Position numbers and translations under genes: made by a program
Origin: a virus
Reading direction: 5' to 3' (one strand)
Length of the DNA stretch: 44,191 bases
Virus record (IMG/VR): IMGVR_UViG_3300020581_000018
Span: 1 to 44,191 of that record
Notes under the pieces: model-generated
The model's database searches: none
What the model was told of the DNA's origin: nothing
What the model saw: only the letters and a program-made list of their open reading frames with translations
Shown here: positions 6,528 to 23,526 of the stretch, piece by piece
How the letters are laid out: every line of letters starts with the position of its first letter
How positions within the stretch are numbered: the stretch's first letter is position 1

Positions 6528-8493
6528 TCGGCATATCCTCACGCTGCGCTTGTTGGGCCGGTGGAACCGCCTGCGGTCCACCACCTGGAGCGGGTAACTG
6601 CGGCTGACCGCCTCCCGGTTGCTGCTGGCGTTGCTGAATCTGTTGTGCAATCTGCTGTGCCTTCTGCATCTCAACTTGCTTTTCAATTCCTGTGATGCGG
6701 TCCATGACCGTGCCAAGCAAATCGGGGATAGCGGCGCTGGGATCTTCGATCCCGAACTCTTTACAGATTCGCCGCATGACGAACGTAGCGGCCACTGTAG
6801 AGGACAACAGGAAGTGCATAATCTCAGGAGGATTCTGCGGGTTAGCCGCAGCTTGGAGTAGTTGCGCTACCTGCTGGTCGTGAGCGCGAATGTTATTTAG
6901 GAGAAGCATTAAGTTTTGCTTCTCAATTTCTTTGTTGACGGAGCCAGTAGCCGCACGAATAGGAAGGTGCATTCTTCCTTGCCGTACATTGTCCAGCGCC
7001 TTTTTTAGATGCTTTCCGCCTTTTTCTCCTAATGCGCGGATGTCTCTTTCGGAAACTCCAAAGTGAGCATCGTACAAAAGTTTCTGACGGCCAAGAGTGT
7101 AATGGGATGTCCTAAACTCCGTGATGTTCAAATTTGAGCGCGTGTTTCCTTCCTGCATAATCGGGAAAGCGCCAAGAGCACTATATTGACCTTTTTTCGT
7201 AACGGTTCCAGAGCCAGAGCCACTTGAAGATGGGCCAATGCCAGCCCGATCCGTAGCTAGTTGTAAAGTCTGCTGTTCGTCTTTGATGGTTTCATTGGCT
7301 GTGCGTCCGAGTGGGATTACTTCAATGGAGCCTTCTGGTCCAGTTACAAGCGCGTTCGGGTAGATGCTAAAATTGGAGTCGAGCTGTGTACCGTCGCCAG
7401 CGCGTAATAGGTTCGTGTTCGCCAGGGTCGAAGCATCTCCACGACGGTTGTGGATAGCCGTCACTTCCTCTTGATAGTCCTTCAACATCTCGCAGAAGCC
7501 TAAGCCGTAGGCGCGTTCGCCATCGGAGCCAAGCCGCGCCACTAAGTAGGGGATAGAATTTTCCGGGAGCCAATTGAATACCCTCTTGATCGGTTTTCCA
7601 CTTTCCAGATGGCCCGTGTAGATTACGTGGAAGCGTTGTCGGTTGATGGCGTATGGGAAGTAGGATTCGTAGATGTCCCACTCATCGGAGTTCGGTCCAC
7701 CGTCATCCGATTTGACTCCCTGCCCATCCTCGATCTCACGGATTGTTTTTTCTGGCCCTTGCCGGTCTGGAGATTTGAGAATTTCCAAGACGGTCTTTTT
7801 GTCGAACGTCTTGTCGTTCAAGAATCGTTCGACTTCAAACTTTTCCATGCGAGCGCGTTGAGCAACGATGGGATACCGCTCCAGTTCCTTCTGCGTCCCA
7901 GGAATCATAAAATCTTCAAACATCAAGTTGAGGCACACAGGCCCATCGTGGCGGATAAATTCTTGGAACTGCACGCCGCCATCTTCCGAATAACTAGCAG
8001 CGACTTTCTCGACAACCAGTTCAGGCAACAGTTTCACCGCTCCCAATCCGTACTTGGCAAACGTACGAATCCAGATGGGGTACTTCATCATCAAATTTAA
8101 GTGGGAAGGCTCAAGGCCAGAAAAGGAGAGCCACTCCTGAATTGCCTCTCGCTGTTCTTCGGCTTCCTCTTCGCGCTTCCACTCGCCTTGCAATCCAGCG
8201 ACAAATAACGGATCACTACCGACCGTAGCCATAACTACTTTGGCCGTGAACTGGTCTATGTAGCTCCCTACGAGCTGCACGACTACGTTGGAAGCATTCT
8301 GCCAGGGGAAGGATTTAGTTTTTTCGCGTGGAGTCCCGTAGTAAATCTTCCGCATCTGCGTTACTTTTTCTTCACGTATGTCGCGTAAGCTGTGCTTGAG
8401 CGACTTCATGCGCTCCTTCCAATAGGTGTCAACTTCGGCAATCTGTGTCTTGGACAGTTCTTTGGAGAGCGGTATTTCTACTGGGACCGGCAT
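6511..8493 (-). CDS. portal protein
   Basis: This 660-residue protein is the head-vertex portal, through which DNA enters and leaves. It has the length and features of podovirus portals: a charged N-terminal helix, the conserved segment FPWQNASNVVVQLVGSYID (62-80), the stem-like region around DYQEEVTAIHNRRGDAS, and a Gln/Pro-rich C-terminal tail (about 605-660) that may form the barrel or be disordered. The ATG start at 8493 has no strong ribosome-binding site. The upstream nuclease gene ends at 8503, so translation may be coupled. It overlaps the coiled-coil gene downstream. Confidence 0.88.
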   Translation of the reverse strand: MPVPVEIPLSKELSKTQIAEVDTYWKERMKSLKHSLRDIREEKVTQMRKIYYGTPREKTKSFPWQNASNVVVQLVGSYIDQFTAKVVMATVGSDPLFVAGLQGEWKREEEAEEQREAIQEWLSFSGLEPSHLNLMMKYPIWIRTFAKYGLGAVKLLPELVVEKVAASYSEDGGVQFQEFIRHDGPVCLNLMFEDFMIPGTQKELERYPIVAQRARMEKFEVERFLNDKTFDKKTVLEILKSPDRQGPEKTIREIEDGQGVKSDDGGPNSDEWDIYESYFPYAINRQRFHVIYTGHLESGKPIKRVFNWLPENSIPYLVARLGSDGERAYGLGFCEMLKDYQEEVTAIHNRRGDASTLANTNLLRAGDGTQLDSNFSIYPNALVTGPEGSIEVIPLGRTANETIKDEQQTLQLATDRAGIGPSSSGSGSGTVTKKGQYSALGAFPIMQEGNTRSNLNITEFRTSHYTLGRQKLLYDAHFGVSERDIRALGEKGGKHLKKALDNVRQGRMHLPIRAATGSVNKEIEKQNLMLLLNNIRAHDQQVAQLLQAAANPQNPPEIMHFLLSSTVAATFVMRRICKEFGIEDPSAAIPDLLGTVMDRITGIEKQVEMQKAQQIAQQIQQRQQQPGGGQPQLPAPGGGPQAVPPAQQAQREDMPNERTQ

Positions 8494-15983: not shown

Positions 15984-16352
15984 ATGGGACAAGTCACTCC
16001 AGTCAACCAGATCGTTAACACAGAGTCTCGTCAGTCGCAGCTCAACCGGACGTTCGGGTTGGCGCAAGCCATCAATGGCGGATTGGATTTCGGTGTGAGT
16101 ACGCAAACTTCCCCCGCAAACTATACTGGGAATATATCTGGACAGTGGGCTAACGTAACCGCTCCAGCGGGAGCCAACACGGAGTTCGCTGTCCCCCACA
16201 CTTTAGGCCGAATCCCGAGTTTCTATTTATTCATCTCGGATCGCGCCTGCCGTCTCTACCAGTTGCCAAATACTGGAACCGTGTGGACACTGAATAACGT
16301 ATACTTGAAGTGCGACACATCGAGCGCCGTGCTAAGGATTTTTCTTCTATGA
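15984..16352 (+). CDS. small tail protein (122 aa)
   Basis: I do not recognise a named family. The C-terminal half carries a motif common in phage tail and fibre genes, with AVPHTLGRIPSFYLFI followed by TGTVWTL, typical of short beta-sandwich heads. ATG 15984 follows the hub gene by one base, and the stop overlaps the next start (ATGA). It is probably a virion component. Confidence 0.5.
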   Translation: MGQVTPVNQIVNTESRQSQLNRTFGLAQAINGGLDFGVSTQTSPANYTGNISGQWANVTAPAGANTEFAVPHTLGRIPSFYLFISDRACRLYQLPNTGTVWTLNNVYLKCDTSSAVLRIFLL

Positions 16353-17404
16353 GCACATTCACCAGTATTGGAGCGCTGGCAAGCGGACTCCCAAACAAAT
16401 ACGGGAATCGGCAAGACCTTGCTGTGATTTCCGATGGCTCCAAGCCTGTCACGGCCATCCGCCAATCCATTGCAGAACTAACCGAAACATACGAATTTGA
16501 AGAGTTGAAGTACCAAACCCCGGTTCCTCCCGCTACGCCTTTACAGATGACGACCTCGCAACCGATTATTTCAATTGCGAGTTTACTGGCTACTATCTCC
16601 GCGAACTCAGCGTTCCCACAGTTCCAGACTCAGAACGTTGTAGACATCACGGACGTTTATACATTCTGGATGTGGTTCTCAGGTGGCGTAAACCAGGCAG
16701 GCCGGACGCTCGACTATCGGCGCGTACCAACGGTTGACCAAGACAGTTATGGAATCACATCAAACACGCAGGGCGCGGTGGGCACGGCACCTCCAACTTA
16801 CTTCACGCGGTTTGGCAATATCCTACAAGTTGGACCAGCGCCGGACAATCCGTACACCTTTTTCGTTCGCATGAAACTACGTCATCCGATGCCTTATACA
16901 GAACCATTCATTCCTGCCGTACTCACCCCGGTGGTTGGCGGTGGAGCGATTACGGGAATAACCGTGGCATCCGGTGGAAGCGGATACCTGCCAAGTCTCA
17001 CGACAATTCCAATGACATTCAACACTCCTGTTGGTGGAACGGTGGCCACGGGAACGGCAACCAGTAGTGCAGGTGGAGTGATTACGAGTGTAACCCTTTC
17101 CAATGGCGGAACTGGGTACACCTCAAACAACGTGAGCATTTGCGGCACAGCGGCAATCGCATCCCAATCCGTTTTCATGCCTGATTCTTGGCATGAGATC
17201 GTGCAGTATGCCGCCTGCTGGAGAATAGCAACATGGAGCGGAGAGCAAGAGTATATCGCCATGTTCGACAACATTTTGAAGAGCAAGGGAATTGATGTGG
17301 CGGAAGCGCGAGCGGCGAAATCTCAGATGAAACGAGACGAAAGACATAACTCTAGGCAAATCTCTTTGCGTCTCGGTTCTCCGTATACGTTTGCTAACCG
17401 ATAG
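16349..17404 (+). CDS. head-tail adaptor-like protein with beta insertion
   Basis: This 351-residue protein resembles podovirus adaptors (T7 gp11 or P22 gp4 type). It has a helical N-terminal region, a central part with WMWFSGG and DYRRVPTVDQDSYG, and a C-terminal helix with a WHEIVQYAACWRIATWSGE element. Between about residues 194 and 260 lies a distinct Gly/Thr-rich segment with two near-repeats (ITGITVASGGSGYL and ITSVTLSNGGTGYT) that looks like an inserted beta domain found in many surface proteins. ATG 16349 overlaps the previous stop. The adaptor call is moderate. Confidence 0.55.
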   Translation: MSTFTSIGALASGLPNKYGNRQDLAVISDGSKPVTAIRQSIAELTETYEFEELKYQTPVPPATPLQMTTSQPIISIASLLATISANSAFPQFQTQNVVDITDVYTFWMWFSGGVNQAGRTLDYRRVPTVDQDSYGITSNTQGAVGTAPPTYFTRFGNILQVGPAPDNPYTFFVRMKLRHPMPYTEPFIPAVLTPVVGGGAITGITVASGGSGYLPSLTTIPMTFNTPVGGTVATGTATSSAGGVITSVTLSNGGTGYTSNNVSICGTAAIASQSVFMPDSWHEIVQYAACWRIATWSGEQEYIAMFDNILKSKGIDVAEARAAKSQMKRDERHNSRQISLRLGSPYTFANR

Positions 17405-17419
17405 GAGTAGAATACCCGC

Positions 17420-18169
17420 ATGGCGATTAACCCGACAGGTGCGAATCAAGGACCGCAAGCGCCGATCATGTATGACCCGCACGCTCCTGGAGCGGCCACT
17501 GGCGGACCGGGAAGCTACAACTTTGGTAACTCGCAAAACCCAACACCACCGCCAACGGGCACAAATCAGAATCCGTTTCAAGTTCCGCTGCCCACAATGC
17601 CCGTATCTATGAATCCTACCGGAGCACCCGGAGGAGCACCAGGAGGAGTTACTACTACTGGGCTGGGCGGAAGCACTGTTACTGGTGGAAATGCCTCTGG
17701 CCTGAACACTCAAAGCAACGATGCGCTCCTCCGCAGCCTGCAAGAGAATTATGGGCAGGGACCAGGTTCCATGATTTTCCAGTTCTTGCAATCCGGTGGT
17801 GGATTCAACGCGCCTCTCGCGCAGCAAACAGTAGAAGCCACAAACAAGGCGATGGAACACAACATCCAACTAGGGCTTGGAAACCTAGAAGGTACTCTCG
17901 GCGGGCAAGGAATCAGCCCGGATTCTTCGGTGGCAGCGCTAGAAACATCAAACTATGAATCGAACGCGCTGACGCAGATGAATGCGATTGACGCAAATAT
18001 CTACAACCAGATGTGGGATCAGTCACAAAACCGAGAACTTTCCTTGATGGAAGGTGTCGCTGGAGTCTCTGCAACCTCAATAGCTAATCAGAATAGCCAA
18101 TGGCTTACTGACTTGACAGGAATTGCTGGAGCAGCAGGTTCAATCATGGGCGGAGTAGCAGCATTCTAA
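17420..18169 (+). CDS. probable internal virion (ejection) protein, short
   Basis: This 249-residue protein has a disordered Pro/Gly/Thr-rich first half and a helical second half (LMEGVAGVSATSIANQN), ending in a short hydrophobic Gly/Ala stretch (GIAGAAGSIMGGVAAF). It is followed at once by two larger ejection-type genes. Podoviruses carry three such proteins, which leave the head and form a channel. ATG 17420 has ATAGGAGTAG about 10 nt upstream. Function is by context and composition. Confidence 0.5.
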   Translation: MAINPTGANQGPQAPIMYDPHAPGAATGGPGSYNFGNSQNPTPPPTGTNQNPFQVPLPTMPVSMNPTGAPGGAPGGVTTTGLGGSTVTGGNASGLNTQSNDALLRSLQENYGQGPGSMIFQFLQSGGGFNAPLAQQTVEATNKAMEHNIQLGLGNLEGTLGGQGISPDSSVAALETSNYESNALTQMNAIDANIYNQMWDQSQNRELSLMEGVAGVSATSIANQNSQWLTDLTGIAGAAGSIMGGVAAF

Positions 18170-18170
18170 A

Positions 18171-19907
18171 ATGGGAACACCTCCCAATCCGATGCAGGCA
18201 CCACCCGCCGACTTGATTACACAGATGCTCGGTCAAGCGGCTGGCCAACAGGCAAATGCGGCAGGGAACACTCAAGTTGCTCCGCAAGTTCCTCAGCATC
18301 AAGTTCCACAACCTCAACCATTCCGGCCACAGCCGCAGCAAGGAACTCAGGCCGTTGGTCCGGGACAGGGCGCAGCCATGCGCGACCAGCGGATGCAAAA
18401 CTTTTCCACTAGCATCCAGAATCTAGTTGGCGCTGTCACTACAACAATTCAAAAAAGGAAAGCACGGCAGGAGCAAAAAGTATTCGACAACTTCGCTAAC
18501 TATGCCAAAGGCTCGCAGGATGCCCAAGGCCAGATGCAAGAGGCAATGGCGGCACTGAAAAAGAATCCGCAGGACAAAGAAGCGTACCAACGCTACTTGC
18601 AGGCGAAGCAGGCTTACGACCAAAACATGCAAAATCTGAACGACCTCGTAAGCGGAAAGAACGAGAAGAACGCGAAGTTGTTGGCAAAGGGCTACGGCAT
18701 TGACGATAAGAACGCAGGCACACCGGAGCGTCAAGCGGCGATTGCAGCGATAAAGAAGACGATGCCGGGGGTGCAGGGGAACGCAGCCAACCTCATGTCG
18801 CGCATGCCACAGGCACAGCAACTCACGCCGCAAGCGCAGGGACAGGCGCAAGCTGTTCAGGCAGGTTTGACCGCTAAAGCTCCTACAGGCGCATCTATTC
18901 TAAATTTCGCGTCGAAAGAGGACGCTATAAAAGCAGCAAAGGAACAAGCAATAGATAAGCGCAAGGCTTCCTTCATCGAGGTGTTACCAAAGATGGAGTC
19001 AGCGGGCTATTCGTTCGACAAAGGTTCAGACGGTAATCCACAGTTTGACGCGCAAGGATTTCCTAAAGTTCATGTGATGACGCAAGAGGAGCGCGACAAG
19101 AACCCCGCGAGTGCCGCTAAGAACGATCTATTGCAGGCCACGATTGATTTGAAGAAGGCGCAAACCGATGCGCTCATGAATCCCAATAATCCATCCTTGA
19201 AAGTAAAAGCGGCGGAGGCTTCGGCACGACTGAGAAATGCTTCCCTGGTGACAAATGGAGACGCCAAAGACATTGCCGCTGGAATTGAACGCGGCGACTT
19301 GCCTCCAACCATGAAGAGTTTGTATCGCAACGCAGCAAGCGTGGAGGCCGAACTAGCTAGACGTGGAGTGCCACTCGCCAAGATGGAGGCGGATTGGATG
19401 GCGACAAATAAACTGCTCGCCACTCTGAATGGACCTCAGCAAGTTCGCTTGCGGCAAGCCGTGCAATTCACTAGCGATTCGCTTGAAATAATTGACGACC
19501 TGTACTCCAAGTGGCTTAAAACTGGGTTGCCCAGTGGATTCAAAGAGTTCAACCGTGCCGCGCTCACCGCAGCTAAGAGCTTACCCGGAGAAGCGGGAAG
19601 TATAGCCAATCGTCTCGACGCGCAGTTGAACGATTTAACATCTGAATTGGGGACCGTGTACAAGGGCGGGAACTCTTCCACGGATGAGTCTTTGAAGTTG
19701 GCCGCAGGAAACTTGAAAGCAGAGTGGAATACAAAGACATTTCACGATGCCATTCAACAGGTGCGAACCAACTTGAAAATCCGTCAGAACTCTATCAAAA
19801 ACTCTCAGGTTGAGGGTGGTAATCCCGATAGTCCCTACAGGCCAACGCAGGATACAAGCGAAGACGATGCGATTCTCAAAATGCTGGATGATAGGGGGAA
19901 TCTTTGA
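18171..19907 (+). CDS. internal virion (ejection) protein, zero-frame product
   Basis: This 578-residue protein is Gln/Ala/Lys-rich and largely helical, with a Pro/Gln-rich start and coiled segments (around residues 95-160 and 240-420). It sits between two other ejection-type genes. The last codons are AGG GGG AAT CTT TGA C, which is the arrangement of the RF2 gene frameshift site. A +1 shift on CTT would continue into the next frame and yield a protein of about 692 residues. Both products could be made. No catalytic motif is obvious in the zero-frame part. Confidence 0.65.
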   Translation: MGTPPNPMQAPPADLITQMLGQAAGQQANAAGNTQVAPQVPQHQVPQPQPFRPQPQQGTQAVGPGQGAAMRDQRMQNFSTSIQNLVGAVTTTIQKRKARQEQKVFDNFANYAKGSQDAQGQMQEAMAALKKNPQDKEAYQRYLQAKQAYDQNMQNLNDLVSGKNEKNAKLLAKGYGIDDKNAGTPERQAAIAAIKKTMPGVQGNAANLMSRMPQAQQLTPQAQGQAQAVQAGLTAKAPTGASILNFASKEDAIKAAKEQAIDKRKASFIEVLPKMESAGYSFDKGSDGNPQFDAQGFPKVHVMTQEERDKNPASAAKNDLLQATIDLKKAQTDALMNPNNPSLKVKAAEASARLRNASLVTNGDAKDIAAGIERGDLPPTMKSLYRNAASVEAELARRGVPLAKMEADWMATNKLLATLNGPQQVRLRQAVQFTSDSLEIIDDLYSKWLKTGLPSGFKEFNRAALTAAKSLPGEAGSIANRLDAQLNDLTSELGTVYKGGNSSTDESLKLAAGNLKAEWNTKTFHDAIQQVRTNLKIRQNSIKNSQVEGGNPDSPYRPTQDTSEDDAILKMLDDRGNL

Positions 19908-20250
19908 CTGGAATAAGTTTGGTCCGCAAAACGCTCCCGGACTTATTAAGCAAGGTAATCTCGACCTCAGCAATCGTCCGGTAATTAAAAATCCCGATGG
20001 AACACACAGTTCTGAATATTCCACGTCTTTCCAAAACGAGAAGGGGCAGGAGGTTCTGGTCCCAACCGTAGTGAACGGTAAATTTCTTACACCGGACGGT
20101 AAAAAGCCTAAAGAGGGAAGCGCGGAAGAAAAGGCTATGTTTAAGAGGGCTTGGGAACATTACCTAAAGACAGGTGAGAATCTTGGAATATTCGACACAG
20201 CAGAGCACGCTGATTCAGCGGCAGAACTGATTCACAACAGGAAACAATAA
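19888..20250 (+). CDS. C-terminal ejection-protein domain (+1 frame)
   Basis: From GAC 19906 this frame encodes 114 residues of a domain recurrent in phage internal proteins: GNLDLSNRPVIKNPDGT, a following KGQEVLVPTVVNGKFL, and the end HYLKTGENLGIFDTAEHAD. As an independent gene it would have to start at ATG 19888 with no usable Shine-Dalgarno, and no other standard start exists until near the end. The best reading is that it is the C-terminus of the 18171 product reached by +1 frameshifting. The domain is well known in podovirus ejection and related proteins, but its activity is not established. Confidence 0.7.
   Translation: MIGGIFDWNKFGPQNAPGLIKQGNLDLSNRPVIKNPDGTHSSEYSTSFQNEKGQEVLVPTVVNGKFLTPDGKKPKEGSAEEKAMFKRAWEHYLKTGENLGIFDTAEHADSAAELIHNRKQ
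19893..19908 (+). promoter_or_regulatory. RF2-like programmed +1 frameshift site
   Basis: AGGGGG (19893-19898), three spacer bases AAT, slippery CTT (19902-19904) and stop TGA followed by C. In Escherichia coli prfB the same layout is AGGGGG TAT CTT TGA C. The downstream reading frame is exactly +1, with GAC TGG following as in prfB (CTT T GAC). The AGGGGG lies inside the upstream coding region and cannot act as a ribosome-binding site for the ATG at 19888, which precedes it. Confidence 0.75.
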
Positions 20251-20251
20251 A

Positions 20252-21850
20252 ATGCCCGATGAAACACAACAGCCAGATGTAGCGCAGCGTTTCAAGTCCC
20301 TACGACAAGACCGTCAGAAGGCATTAATTCAGAAGATGACTCCTGACCAGAAAGCGAAACTGAAAAGCGCCATCCTTGCCTCCCAAACCAAGAAAACCGC
20401 TGAACCCGTAAAGGAGATGGGTGCCAAGGACACAGCAAAAGCTGTGGGCAAAGCCGCAGTCGAAGGATACAAAGATTACTCTGTTGGATTCGCTAAAGCT
20501 GCCGGCGATGTCTCTATGACTATCGCAAAGGGTATTAACAAAATACCTGTAGTAGGCGAGAAGTTGTCGCCAAAGGCTGGCATCCAAGCTGGAGAAGACC
20601 TGATGAAATCCTCCAACACGATGCAAAGTGTTGGCAAGGTAGGAGAAGGAATTGTAGAGTTCGCGGCAGGGGCAGAAGCCATCGAAGGACTGTCAGCCGC
20701 ATTGAAAGCAAAAAACATTCCCGCTGTGGTAAAAATTATTCAGAGGTACCCTTGGCTAGCGAAATACGCAGGAGTTGGAATTAAGAACTACACGCTCGGA
20801 GCAGGGCAATCGCTTGCTCATGGAGATTTGAACCCGAACAAGGCAGGGCTATATACAGCCGCAACCGGAGTACTTGGCGAGCAGACATCTTCTCTATTCT
20901 CCAAGTATTCACCAAAGGCAGCGGTTAAGACGCAAGAGGCAATGAATCGCTATCTCGGACTATCGCAAAAGGACATGCCAAAGTGGGAGCGATTGAACGT
21001 CGGTGACGTGCGTGAAGTCGGGAAAACCGTTATCGAACGCGTTGGCGTAAAAGGTTCCGTGGAAGAACAGGCGCACGCTATCGAGACAGCGAGAAGCAAC
21101 GTCCAGGCACAGACTGAGCGTGTAGTCAAGGGCGGAGCGGCAAGGGCAATACCTCTCAAACAGCGCGTTGACCAAGTGGCCGCTAAAGTAGCCGATGAAA
21201 TGGAGCAGTCTATGCCGATTGACCGCGCACAGTTGGACAAGGCAATTCAGGCAAACGTAGACTGGGTAATGAAGAACAAGATTCTTACGCAGTACGGAAC
21301 GCCTTCGCCTTTTATTTCTGCCGAGGATGCGCTTAAACTTCGCCGCGAAATTGACGATGGAATCAAGTGGTCATCCTTCGGAGATTCCACCAACATCCAG
21401 CAAATGTTCCGCTCTGAACTAAGATCGGCGCTGAACCAGGACATTGAATCGGCACTCTCTCCCGCTGCTGCAAAGGACTTCTCTAACCTTAACCGTATCC
21501 ATAGCCGACTCATTATTGCCAGGGATGCAGCGAGAGGAAACGTAGTGCGCTCAGGACTCACTGGGAAGGTAGTTGGCGCTGGCGGTGGAGCGGCTCTCGG
21601 TGGTTACGAGGGTTACACGCATGGAGGAGCAAAGGGAGCCGTTGTAGGCGCAGCGGCAGGAGCCGTAGCAGGGGCAGCGGGAGGCAAGGCGATTACCGAT
21701 CCAAAAACGCAATTGCTGGCCCGTAGGAGCATTGAAGGGCTACTTCCTACCCTAAGAGCGCTTGCCAAAAAATCTCCTGCTCTACAGTCTTCCCTGAGCA
21801 GCGTATTGGGCAACAGCGGCGGTACTGGTTCCATCTCATCGAACCAGTAA
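20252..21850 (+). CDS. ejection protein with glycine-zipper hydrophobic end
   Basis: This 532-residue protein is basic and helical at the N-terminus (residues 1-60 rich in Lys and Gln), with a helical middle part. About residues 435-480 form a Gly/Ala zipper (GGAALGGYEGYTHGGAKG and a following GAAAGAVAGAAGG), a common membrane-active segment in phage channel-forming proteins. It closes the structural operon. ATG 20252 follows the previous frame by one base. I infer that it inserts into the host envelope during DNA entry. Confidence 0.6.
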   Translation: MPDETQQPDVAQRFKSLRQDRQKALIQKMTPDQKAKLKSAILASQTKKTAEPVKEMGAKDTAKAVGKAAVEGYKDYSVGFAKAAGDVSMTIAKGINKIPVVGEKLSPKAGIQAGEDLMKSSNTMQSVGKVGEGIVEFAAGAEAIEGLSAALKAKNIPAVVKIIQRYPWLAKYAGVGIKNYTLGAGQSLAHGDLNPNKAGLYTAATGVLGEQTSSLFSKYSPKAAVKTQEAMNRYLGLSQKDMPKWERLNVGDVREVGKTVIERVGVKGSVEEQAHAIETARSNVQAQTERVVKGGAARAIPLKQRVDQVAAKVADEMEQSMPIDRAQLDKAIQANVDWVMKNKILTQYGTPSPFISAEDALKLRREIDDGIKWSSFGDSTNIQQMFRSELRSALNQDIESALSPAAAKDFSNLNRIHSRLIIARDAARGNVVRSGLTGKVVGAGGGAALGGYEGYTHGGAKGAVVGAAAGAVAGAAGGKAITDPKTQLLARRSIEGLLPTLRALAKKSPALQSSLSSVLGNSGGTGSISSNQ

Positions 21851-21923: not shown

Positions 21924-22217
21924 ATGCCGGGACGTGCAGCTTTGAGCGGAACAAGCGATGCGATGGCAGACATTCGCGCCACACGCAAGGGCGAGAATAC
22001 GGCGGGGATTTCAGGTTCGGATACTTCCAAACTCGGCCTAATGGGACGCATGGGCGGGGACGCGAACGGCCAGTTGGTTGATCCGGCTTACACGCGAATC
22101 GACGCGGAAGTAGTTCACAAGGGAATGAACGGGACAGCGGATGGCGGACAGATGGGATTCGAGTCCGGTTCAGGCCGTACCTTTGGCGGCGGCGGTTCCA
22201 GGCGAAAAGAAGATTGA
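21924..22217 (+). CDS. small Gly-rich disordered protein (97 aa)
   Basis: I do not recognise this protein. It is rich in Gly, Ser, Asp and Arg, has no hydrophobic core, and ends in a basic segment (GGGGSRRKED). It is probably disordered and may bind nucleic acid or another virion protein. CTGGAGGC lies 7 nt before the ATG. It is the first gene after the 21859 promoter. Confidence 0.55.
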   Translation: MPGRAALSGTSDAMADIRATRKGENTAGISGSDTSKLGLMGRMGGDANGQLVDPAYTRIDAEVVHKGMNGTADGGQMGFESGSGRTFGGGGSRRKED

Positions 22218-22224
22218 AACGAAT

Positions 22225-23526
22225 GTGCGTATCCTCCTCGCATCGTCCCACGGCATCGGGGCATGGTTCCTCATACGTCTAATCGAAGAGGGGAACCAAT
22301 GCGACTGGTTTTTTGTCGAAGAGCCTACCCAAGCAGAGAAGCGCACACTTCGCGGACTGATACCAGCCCCTATTGAAAATCCAAAGTTTGAAGAGTATGA
22401 CCTGTGTATTTTTGATTGCACGGGCCACGGTGAGATTGCCGATCAAATCGCTAAAGTAACTCCCACCATAGGCGACAGCGTTTTTGCCTCACGTCTGGAA
22501 GATGACCGCCTATTCGGTATCGAAGTTATGGAACGGTGCGGCATTGAAGTTTCACGGTGGGACTCGTTCGCTAACCCCGAAGCGGCTCGCAAGTTCCTTG
22601 CAAAACATCCTTCCCGATACGTCTACAAACCTTTCGAGATTCCCGGTGAAGAGGACCAAGATGCGTCCGCAACCTATGTAAGCGAATCACCAGAGGACAT
22701 GCTCAAACGCCTCGATCAACTCTTTGAGCAAACAATGCACGCCCCTTTCCTTTTGCAAGAGGTTGTAGACGGAATTGAAATCAGCACAGAGGCATATTTC
22801 GATGGTGAGCAATTCTTCTTTCACAACCACACAATCGAAAAAAAGAAATTGATGTCCGGTGATTACGGTCCCAATACCGGATGCGCGGGAAACCTAGTTT
22901 GGAACATTGACCAACAAAACAAACTGTTTAGGCATGGACTTGGGAGAGCGAAAGAATTTCTTGCTGATTCGGGATTCCGAGGAATGATTGATCTGAATAC
23001 CATAGTATGCCGGAACCATGCTTTCGGATTGGAGTGGACTCCTCGTTTTGGTTATGACGCTTCAGCGTCTATCTTCTGCACGATTCAAGAGCATGAAACG
23101 AACTTCTCCGATTTCTTGTACGCGATTTCCACTGGTCCTGTAGAGCCAAATACGAATCCAGTGAAATTGAGAGCGAAGTATGCGGCTTCGCAACGGTACA
23201 GTTTACCGCCATACCCGGAGGAGATGCCGGGACGACACTCACGCGGTATTCCGATAAAGGGCATCAACCCACTAGAGATTCCGCATCACTGGTTTTTGTA
23301 TGACGCAATGATTGATCCCGAACCAGATGAGGATGGTCTTGTAACAGCGGGAACTACCGGCCTTGTATGCTGCCCTATCGCTCCGGGGCACAGTCCAGAA
23401 GGCGCATGGTACGGAGTTCGCAACCTAACGAAGAACATCAAGTTTGCCAACGCGCAAGTGCGTGACGACCTAGAAGAATGCACGGTCAAGATTTTTGAAG
23501 ATTTACAGGAGTACGGTTGGATATGA
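22225..23526 (+). CDS. ATP-grasp ligase (PurD-like)
   Basis: This 433-residue protein has the architecture of ATP-grasp carboxylate-amine ligases close to PurD. It has an N-terminal Rossmann-like start (VRILLASSHGIGAWFLI) and an ATP-binding Lys near residue 134 (YVYKPFEIPGEED). An adenine-contact strand LLQEVVDGIEIS lies near 178, and the metal-binding signature GLEWTPRFGYDAS is near 268. ATP-grasp enzymes form peptide-like bonds from ATP, acid and amine. Its substrate is unknown. GTG 22225 is preferred; the frame upstream overlaps the previous gene. Its stop overlaps the start of the first secreted fibre (ATGA), hinting at a shared pathway. Confidence 0.75.
   Translation: MRILLASSHGIGAWFLIRLIEEGNQCDWFFVEEPTQAEKRTLRGLIPAPIENPKFEEYDLCIFDCTGHGEIADQIAKVTPTIGDSVFASRLEDDRLFGIEVMERCGIEVSRWDSFANPEAARKFLAKHPSRYVYKPFEIPGEEDQDASATYVSESPEDMLKRLDQLFEQTMHAPFLLQEVVDGIEISTEAYFDGEQFFFHNHTIEKKKLMSGDYGPNTGCAGNLVWNIDQQNKLFRHGLGRAKEFLADSGFRGMIDLNTIVCRNHAFGLEWTPRFGYDASASIFCTIQEHETNFSDFLYAISTGPVEPNTNPVKLRAKYAASQRYSLPPYPEEMPGRHSRGIPIKGINPLEIPHHWFLYDAMIDPEPDEDGLVTAGTTGLVCCPIAPGHSPEGAWYGVRNLTKNIKFANAQVRDDLEECTVKIFEDLQEYGWI

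Follow-up and report, generated by a model that had tools for sequence, protein, structure and literature searches.

A prfB-type +1 frameshift cassette at the junction of a probable phage ejection gene and an accessory domain

The window, i.e., the whole stretch of 44,191 nucleotides analyzed here (positions 1 to 44,191 of IMG/VR record IMGVR_UViG_3300020581_000018, L122), contains a block of three genes with an additional reading frame between the second and the third. The following features were assigned.

17420..18169, + strand: gene 1, a small P22 gp7-like protein of 249 aa, with homologues in the same order in L259, L266, L273, and L274.
18171..19907, + strand: gene 2, a probable ejection protein of 578 aa with its stop TGA at 19905-19907; its homologues in seven relatives lack the downstream domain.
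19893..19908, + strand: prfB-type +1 frameshift cassette AGGGGG AAT CTT TGA C, read directly, matching the prfB consensus and identical over 16 nt in L013.
19906..20250, + strand: +1-frame extension, an accessory domain of 114 codons plus TAA, with homologous domains elsewhere and an AlphaFold2 pLDDT of 88.
20252..21850, + strand: gene 3, a glycine-zipper-containing protein of 532 aa, with its own Shine-Dalgarno (SD) sequence and homologues in L259, L266, and L273.

The gp7-like label of gene 1 reflects its position and composition only, and the protein matched neither PHROGs nor Pfam. Gene 2 has no family match in Pfam or PHROGs, so its assignment as a probable ejection protein draws on its position and on the homologues of the adjoining domain; its 578-aa product looks like a complete protein of the ejection block. 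The glycine-zipper matches of gene 3 are weak and below the curated cut-off, and its SD was computed at -4.3. Single-protein searches of viral contigs revealed no close relatives of gene 2 or gene 3, and a capsid search of bacterial genomes gave no host or prophage match. Two neighboring genes were also of note. The product of 16310-17404 has residues (about 198-283) which are common to L259 and L274, skipped in L266, L272, and L273, and match head-closure and baseplate PHROGs, suggesting another inserted domain. The ejection block is adjoined by a 461-aa ATP-grasp (GARS_A) protein (22141-23526), which is unusual among virion genes.

The zero frame of gene 2 reads GAT AGG GGG AAT CTT TGA C at its 3' end, and its protein terminates in ...LDDRGNL*; the preliminary description had given this end as AGG GGG AAT CTT TGA C, which is exact on direct reading. 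The published prfB consensus comprises AGGGGG, three nucleotides, CTTT(GA), and then C (PMC12421855). Every element of this +1 cassette is found in the window, namely the internal SD-like element AGGGGG (19893-19898, with a run of five Gs), the 3-nt spacer AAT (19899-19901), the slippery CTT (19902-19904), the in-frame TGA (19905-19907), and the C at +4 (19908), so the earlier claims on element, spacing, slippery codon, stop, and context all agree with the consensus. The computed pairing of AGGGGG with the anti-SD is -9.3 kcal/mol in the window and -10.6 kcal/mol for the Escherichia coli element. Directly past the site, the frame previously said to be exactly +1 and to begin GAC TGG AAT is indeed coding, from GAC at 19906 to TAA at 20248-20250 (114 codons). 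A shift would yield a fusion of 578 + 114 = 692 aa, the size of about 692 residues anticipated earlier, with the predicted junction peptide ...MLDDRGNLDWNK, also written ...DDRGNLDWNK. An 11-bp hairpin is predicted at 19912-19947, four nucleotides past TGA-C. As for a downstream RNA stimulator, the fold of 100 nt was no better than shuffles (z -1.0), and no Rfam family was matched.

The extension had been described as a known ejection-protein domain. This holds as far as homology to portions of proteins annotated for DNA transfer or as internal virion proteins goes, and fails in that neither a Pfam nor a PHROGs model exists for it. The domain is up to 72% identical to domains of other phage proteins and by sequence matches parts of DNA transfer, internal virion, and head proteins in Citrovirus, Uetakevirus, and other phages, including the DNA transfer proteins of Aeromonas phage 4_4512 and Bas106, an IVP-C-like protein (Klyazma), and a head protein (SPN1S). 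A search of bacterial genomes returned only distant matches of Stenotrophomonas-type and enterobacterial origin. AlphaFold2 predicted a small alpha/beta domain with confidence (mean pLDDT 88); the fold had no match in the PDB, and its fold matches were only phage proteins, mostly long and uncharacterised.

Among 80 related loci, 74 carry the domain inside a larger ORF (at least 170 aa, or running off the end of the available stretch), and six carry it as a short ORF, of three distinct kinds. Free-standing short versions are those of L159 and L166 to L169, clear in L159 and L166. Homologous proteins have the domain close to the N-terminus, centrally, or C-terminally, and it thus acts like a module that moves among ejection proteins. 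The phage L001 (IMGVR_UViG_3300036886_000043) resembles the window in having the same domain (66% identical) in a protein following a small gp7-like gene, but there the domain is in frame and internal to a 705-aa ORF, with no frameshift site.

A completed scan of the 2.9 million viral contigs of IMG/VR for the exact motif AGGGGGNAYCTTTGAC found it in 60 stretches. Besides the window, only L013 (IMGVR_UViG_3300047509_000381, the L013 / L284 phage) combines a zero frame of 100 or more codons upstream with a +1 frame of 100 or more codons downstream. Most other exact-motif matches reflect GG-x-FD codons that occur by chance within coding sequence, in some cases near gene starts, as in L053 (MNPLIVGGIFD). 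Three further candidates were rejected. At L022:6707-8246 the +1 frame looks like coding sequence even before the motif; a C5 methyltransferase-like gene changes frame there near 7640, and since the motif falls in an already coding frame, this change is probably an indel. L084 has just 35 codons downstream, and L153 has a weaker SD-like element in frames which resemble non-coding antisense. A 25-nt repeat, AGTAGGGGG(A/G)TTCTTTGACTACCCC, with a conserved stretch after it, is present in many IMG/VR contigs (L049, L026, L027, and dozens more) and has no Rfam family; its copies make up most exact prfB-like matches among the matches listed and are not frameshift sites.

L013 carries the exact cassette as well, again in an ejection-type gene of a phage. 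The two phages share the identical 16-nt cassette, an extension in the +1 frame, and the same kind of gene block, which in L013 comprises genes for 209, 651, and 808 aa; a 58-aa segment is common to the 808-aa protein and the product of window gene 3 (E 5e-6). They differ in that the L013 cassette follows gene 3 rather than gene 2, ending the 808-aa ORF, and in that its +1 frame specifies 405 aa that include DUF7178 (PF23802, E 4e-32), with no ATG, GTG, or TTG before the site. The capsid and portal proteins of the window have no match in the L013 phage and are not detectably related to its own. In the five nearest relatives of L013 (51-56% identical), the DUF7178 frame is open for at least 1000 codons upstream, which indicates a plain fusion there. 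In L013 itself, no route to the downstream part other than frameshifting is obvious. The RF2-type reading first proposed for the window holds up, and it is strengthened by the identical site in a second phage.

A capsid search recovered 17 relatives of the window phage at 75-89% identity, seven of which have a gene 2 homologue. The domain was seen in none of the 17, several of whose records are fragments. Where gene 2 is present, cassette and domain are both missing, and no relative with the domain at the equivalent place was found among the records searched, from which those very close to the window may be missing. Absence of the site from closely related phages had been put forward as a refutation, and the outcome is that site and domain are absent together, not the site alone, which speaks neither for nor against frameshifting. 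Relatives carry gene 2 without the domain, which is therefore an addition that was probably acquired between two ejection genes; the cassette marks the point where gene 2 and the domain meet. The fusion geometry described earlier is sound, but gene 2 and the extension are not two halves of one split gene.

These comparisons bear on whether the broken frame reflects an assembly error or a recent mutation, the true or ancestral junction being a plain in-frame fusion and an extra G in the run of five having displaced the frame. One G fewer would indeed give an in-frame ...DDRGIFDWNKFG... fusion in the window and likewise one in L013, and L022 demonstrates that a chance motif beside an indel-like frame change does occur in IMG/VR. 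Two unrelated phages would, however, each need the indel at the very position that produces a complete prfB cassette, and gene 2 of the relatives ends in a stop rather than a fusion, so that no ancestral fusion is known at this place. We regard this explanation as very improbable.

The closest relative, L275, has a gene 2 about 70-71% identical to that of the window over residues 363-549 (C-terminal half). In the nearest relatives gene 3 follows gene 2 directly, and the gene 2 ends are comparable to that of the window (...EDDAILKMLDDRGNL in the window, ...GDDDILKGLDALGK in L259, and ...KKGDPLGIL* in L275). Gene 2 of L275 ends GAT CCT CTG GGG ATA CTC TGA TGG, in which CTGGGGA is the SD (-5.5 kcal/mol) of a gene 3 start overlapping the gene 2 stop; the window counterpart is GAT GAT AGG GGG AAT CTT TGA CTGG. 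An SD before a stop that overlaps the next start may be a ready precursor of an RF2-type site, which insertion of the domain past the gene 2 stop and a few substitutions would complete. In this proposed route from the gene 3 SD to the cassette, the final few codons cannot be aligned with confidence. By the same comparison, AGGGGG could be a functionless remnant, an old gene 3 SD left behind by the domain insertion, with the domain little translated; the GGGG in L275 serves precisely such a gene 3 start. The domain ORF is intact, however, its protein is well conserved, and the window element is closer to prfB than that of L275 (AGGGGG, CTT, and the added C). As an account of what the site does today, a remnant is highly unlikely, and it is better seen as bearing on the origin of the site than on its present function.

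The downstream domain had further been stated to be without a usable own start. Two in-frame ATGs do exist, so the statement is not literally correct, but both are poorly equipped for initiation.

19888..19890, + strand: ATG, rival start codon for a separate 120-aa protein, with no anti-SD pairing at usable spacing.
19867..19869, + strand: ATG, second rival start codon, with a weak SD (-3.6 kcal/mol at an 11-nt gap).

By comparison, the median SD is -5.4 kcal/mol for the annotated genes of the window, a few of which are also weak, and -2.1 for background ATGs. No ATG, GTG, or TTG lies in frame after AGGGGG at SD distance, so AGGGGG cannot serve initiation of the domain.

The main rival to frameshifting is an ordinary overlapping gene, in which a separate 120-aa protein (127 aa from ATG 19867) would be made by coupled re-initiation at ATG 19888 after TGA 19905, the likeness to prfB being coincidental. 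That ATG lies 17 nt before the stop, which is within reach of coupled re-initiation, and the likeness could come from the +1 codons GGG GGA ATC TTT GAC (GGIFD), much as chance GG-x-FD codons such as those in L053 account for most of the other exact matches. The free-standing domain versions in L159 and L166 also fit an independent gene, and L136 (3911-4330) has the same geometry, with the same domain in +1 after an 812-aa ejection-type gene and an ATG 17 nt before the stop. On the other hand, ATG 19888 has no SD, 74 of the 80 loci have the domain within a larger ORF, and coincidence would require AGGGGG, CTT, TGA, and C together at a gene end in the right frame. The ATG of L136 is likewise without an SD, and its upstream gene ends CCC TAA, which resembles the CCC_UGA +1 slip sites of Listeria phages (PMC5009743). 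As its stop follows CCC, a known +1 slip codon, L136 does not clearly favor re-initiation and is possibly another frameshift-appended copy of the domain. Re-initiation at 19888 is possible, and an ordinary overlapping gene strikes us as unlikely.

How improbable such a coincidence is was estimated from 146 viral loci not picked by motif (1.17 Mb, 1,221 long ORF ends). CTT TGA C terminates three of the 1,221 long ORFs, an in-phase AGGGGG near C-termini occurs in three of 36,630 hexamers, and 31 of the 1,221 ends are followed by a +1 frame with 80 or more open codons and no start in the next 40 codons. If the three features are independent, the joint chance is ~5e-9 per gene end and ~3e-7 for a 60-gene phage. 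Over all IMG/VR the chance expectation is probably below one yet not negligible, depending on the total gene number, and context must therefore carry part of the weight.

Frameshifting of the RF2 type is the explanation we favor, and programmed +1 slippage probably supplies some copies of an ejection-block protein, complete in itself, with the accessory domain. Most ribosomes would stop at TGA 19905 and release the 578-aa gene 2 product. A fraction would be held by pairing of AGGGGG with the 16S rRNA anti-SD and by slow RF2 termination at TGA-C, slip from CTT to TTT, and read on into GAC TGG AAT..., producing a 692-aa form with the C-terminal accessory domain, which would have entered the block as an insertion separating gene 2 from gene 3. 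Slippage and its efficiency, a reliance on the RF2 of the host, and long-form protein in virions are what we infer from this arrangement.

The RF2 frameshift cassette is among the most conserved recoding signals known. The window site and bacterial prfB have in common AGGGGG, the 3-nt spacer, CTT, TGA, C, and coding in +1 past the stop (PMC12421855). The prfB site lies near codon 26 and that of the window near the end of a long phage gene, and the E. coli spacer is TAT where the window has AAT. Unlike in prfB, the zero-frame product is a full protein, and the extension is an accessory domain without a Pfam or PHROGs family instead of release factor 2; with no RF2 encoded, there is no autoregulatory loop. 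The site probably works like that of prfB, and it is not part of a prfB gene. The Listeria phages PSA, A118, and A500 have +1 frameshifts in capsid and tail genes and so share with the window the shift in structural genes, the C-terminally extended second form, and, in tsh, a slip codon beside a UGA stop (PMC5009743). They slip at CCC (within AAA CCC UGA in the case of tsh), and PSA cps additionally has a pseudoknot (PMC5009743), whereas in the window the codon before the stop is CTT, accompanied by AGGGGG. The cassette itself is already known from prfB, and according to a 2024 tool paper, every +1 RECODE entry with a CUU-stop motif is a prfB gene (PMC10885494). No report of the cassette outside prfB or in phage virion genes was found in the open-access literature, which is not proof of novelty.

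If this reading is true, the cassette works in phage virion genes as a free-standing module, virion composition would be linked to the release-factor level of the host, and domains which gene callers annotate as separate proteins, or miss, would be explained. Judging from L275, such sites could arise from the SD of a following gene whose start overlaps the TGA. More tentatively, it is possible that the prfB cassette is a portable module, evolved or captured by phage ejection blocks on two or more occasions, where it would append mobile C-terminal domains to ejection proteins, with the host RF2 level setting the share of each virion form.
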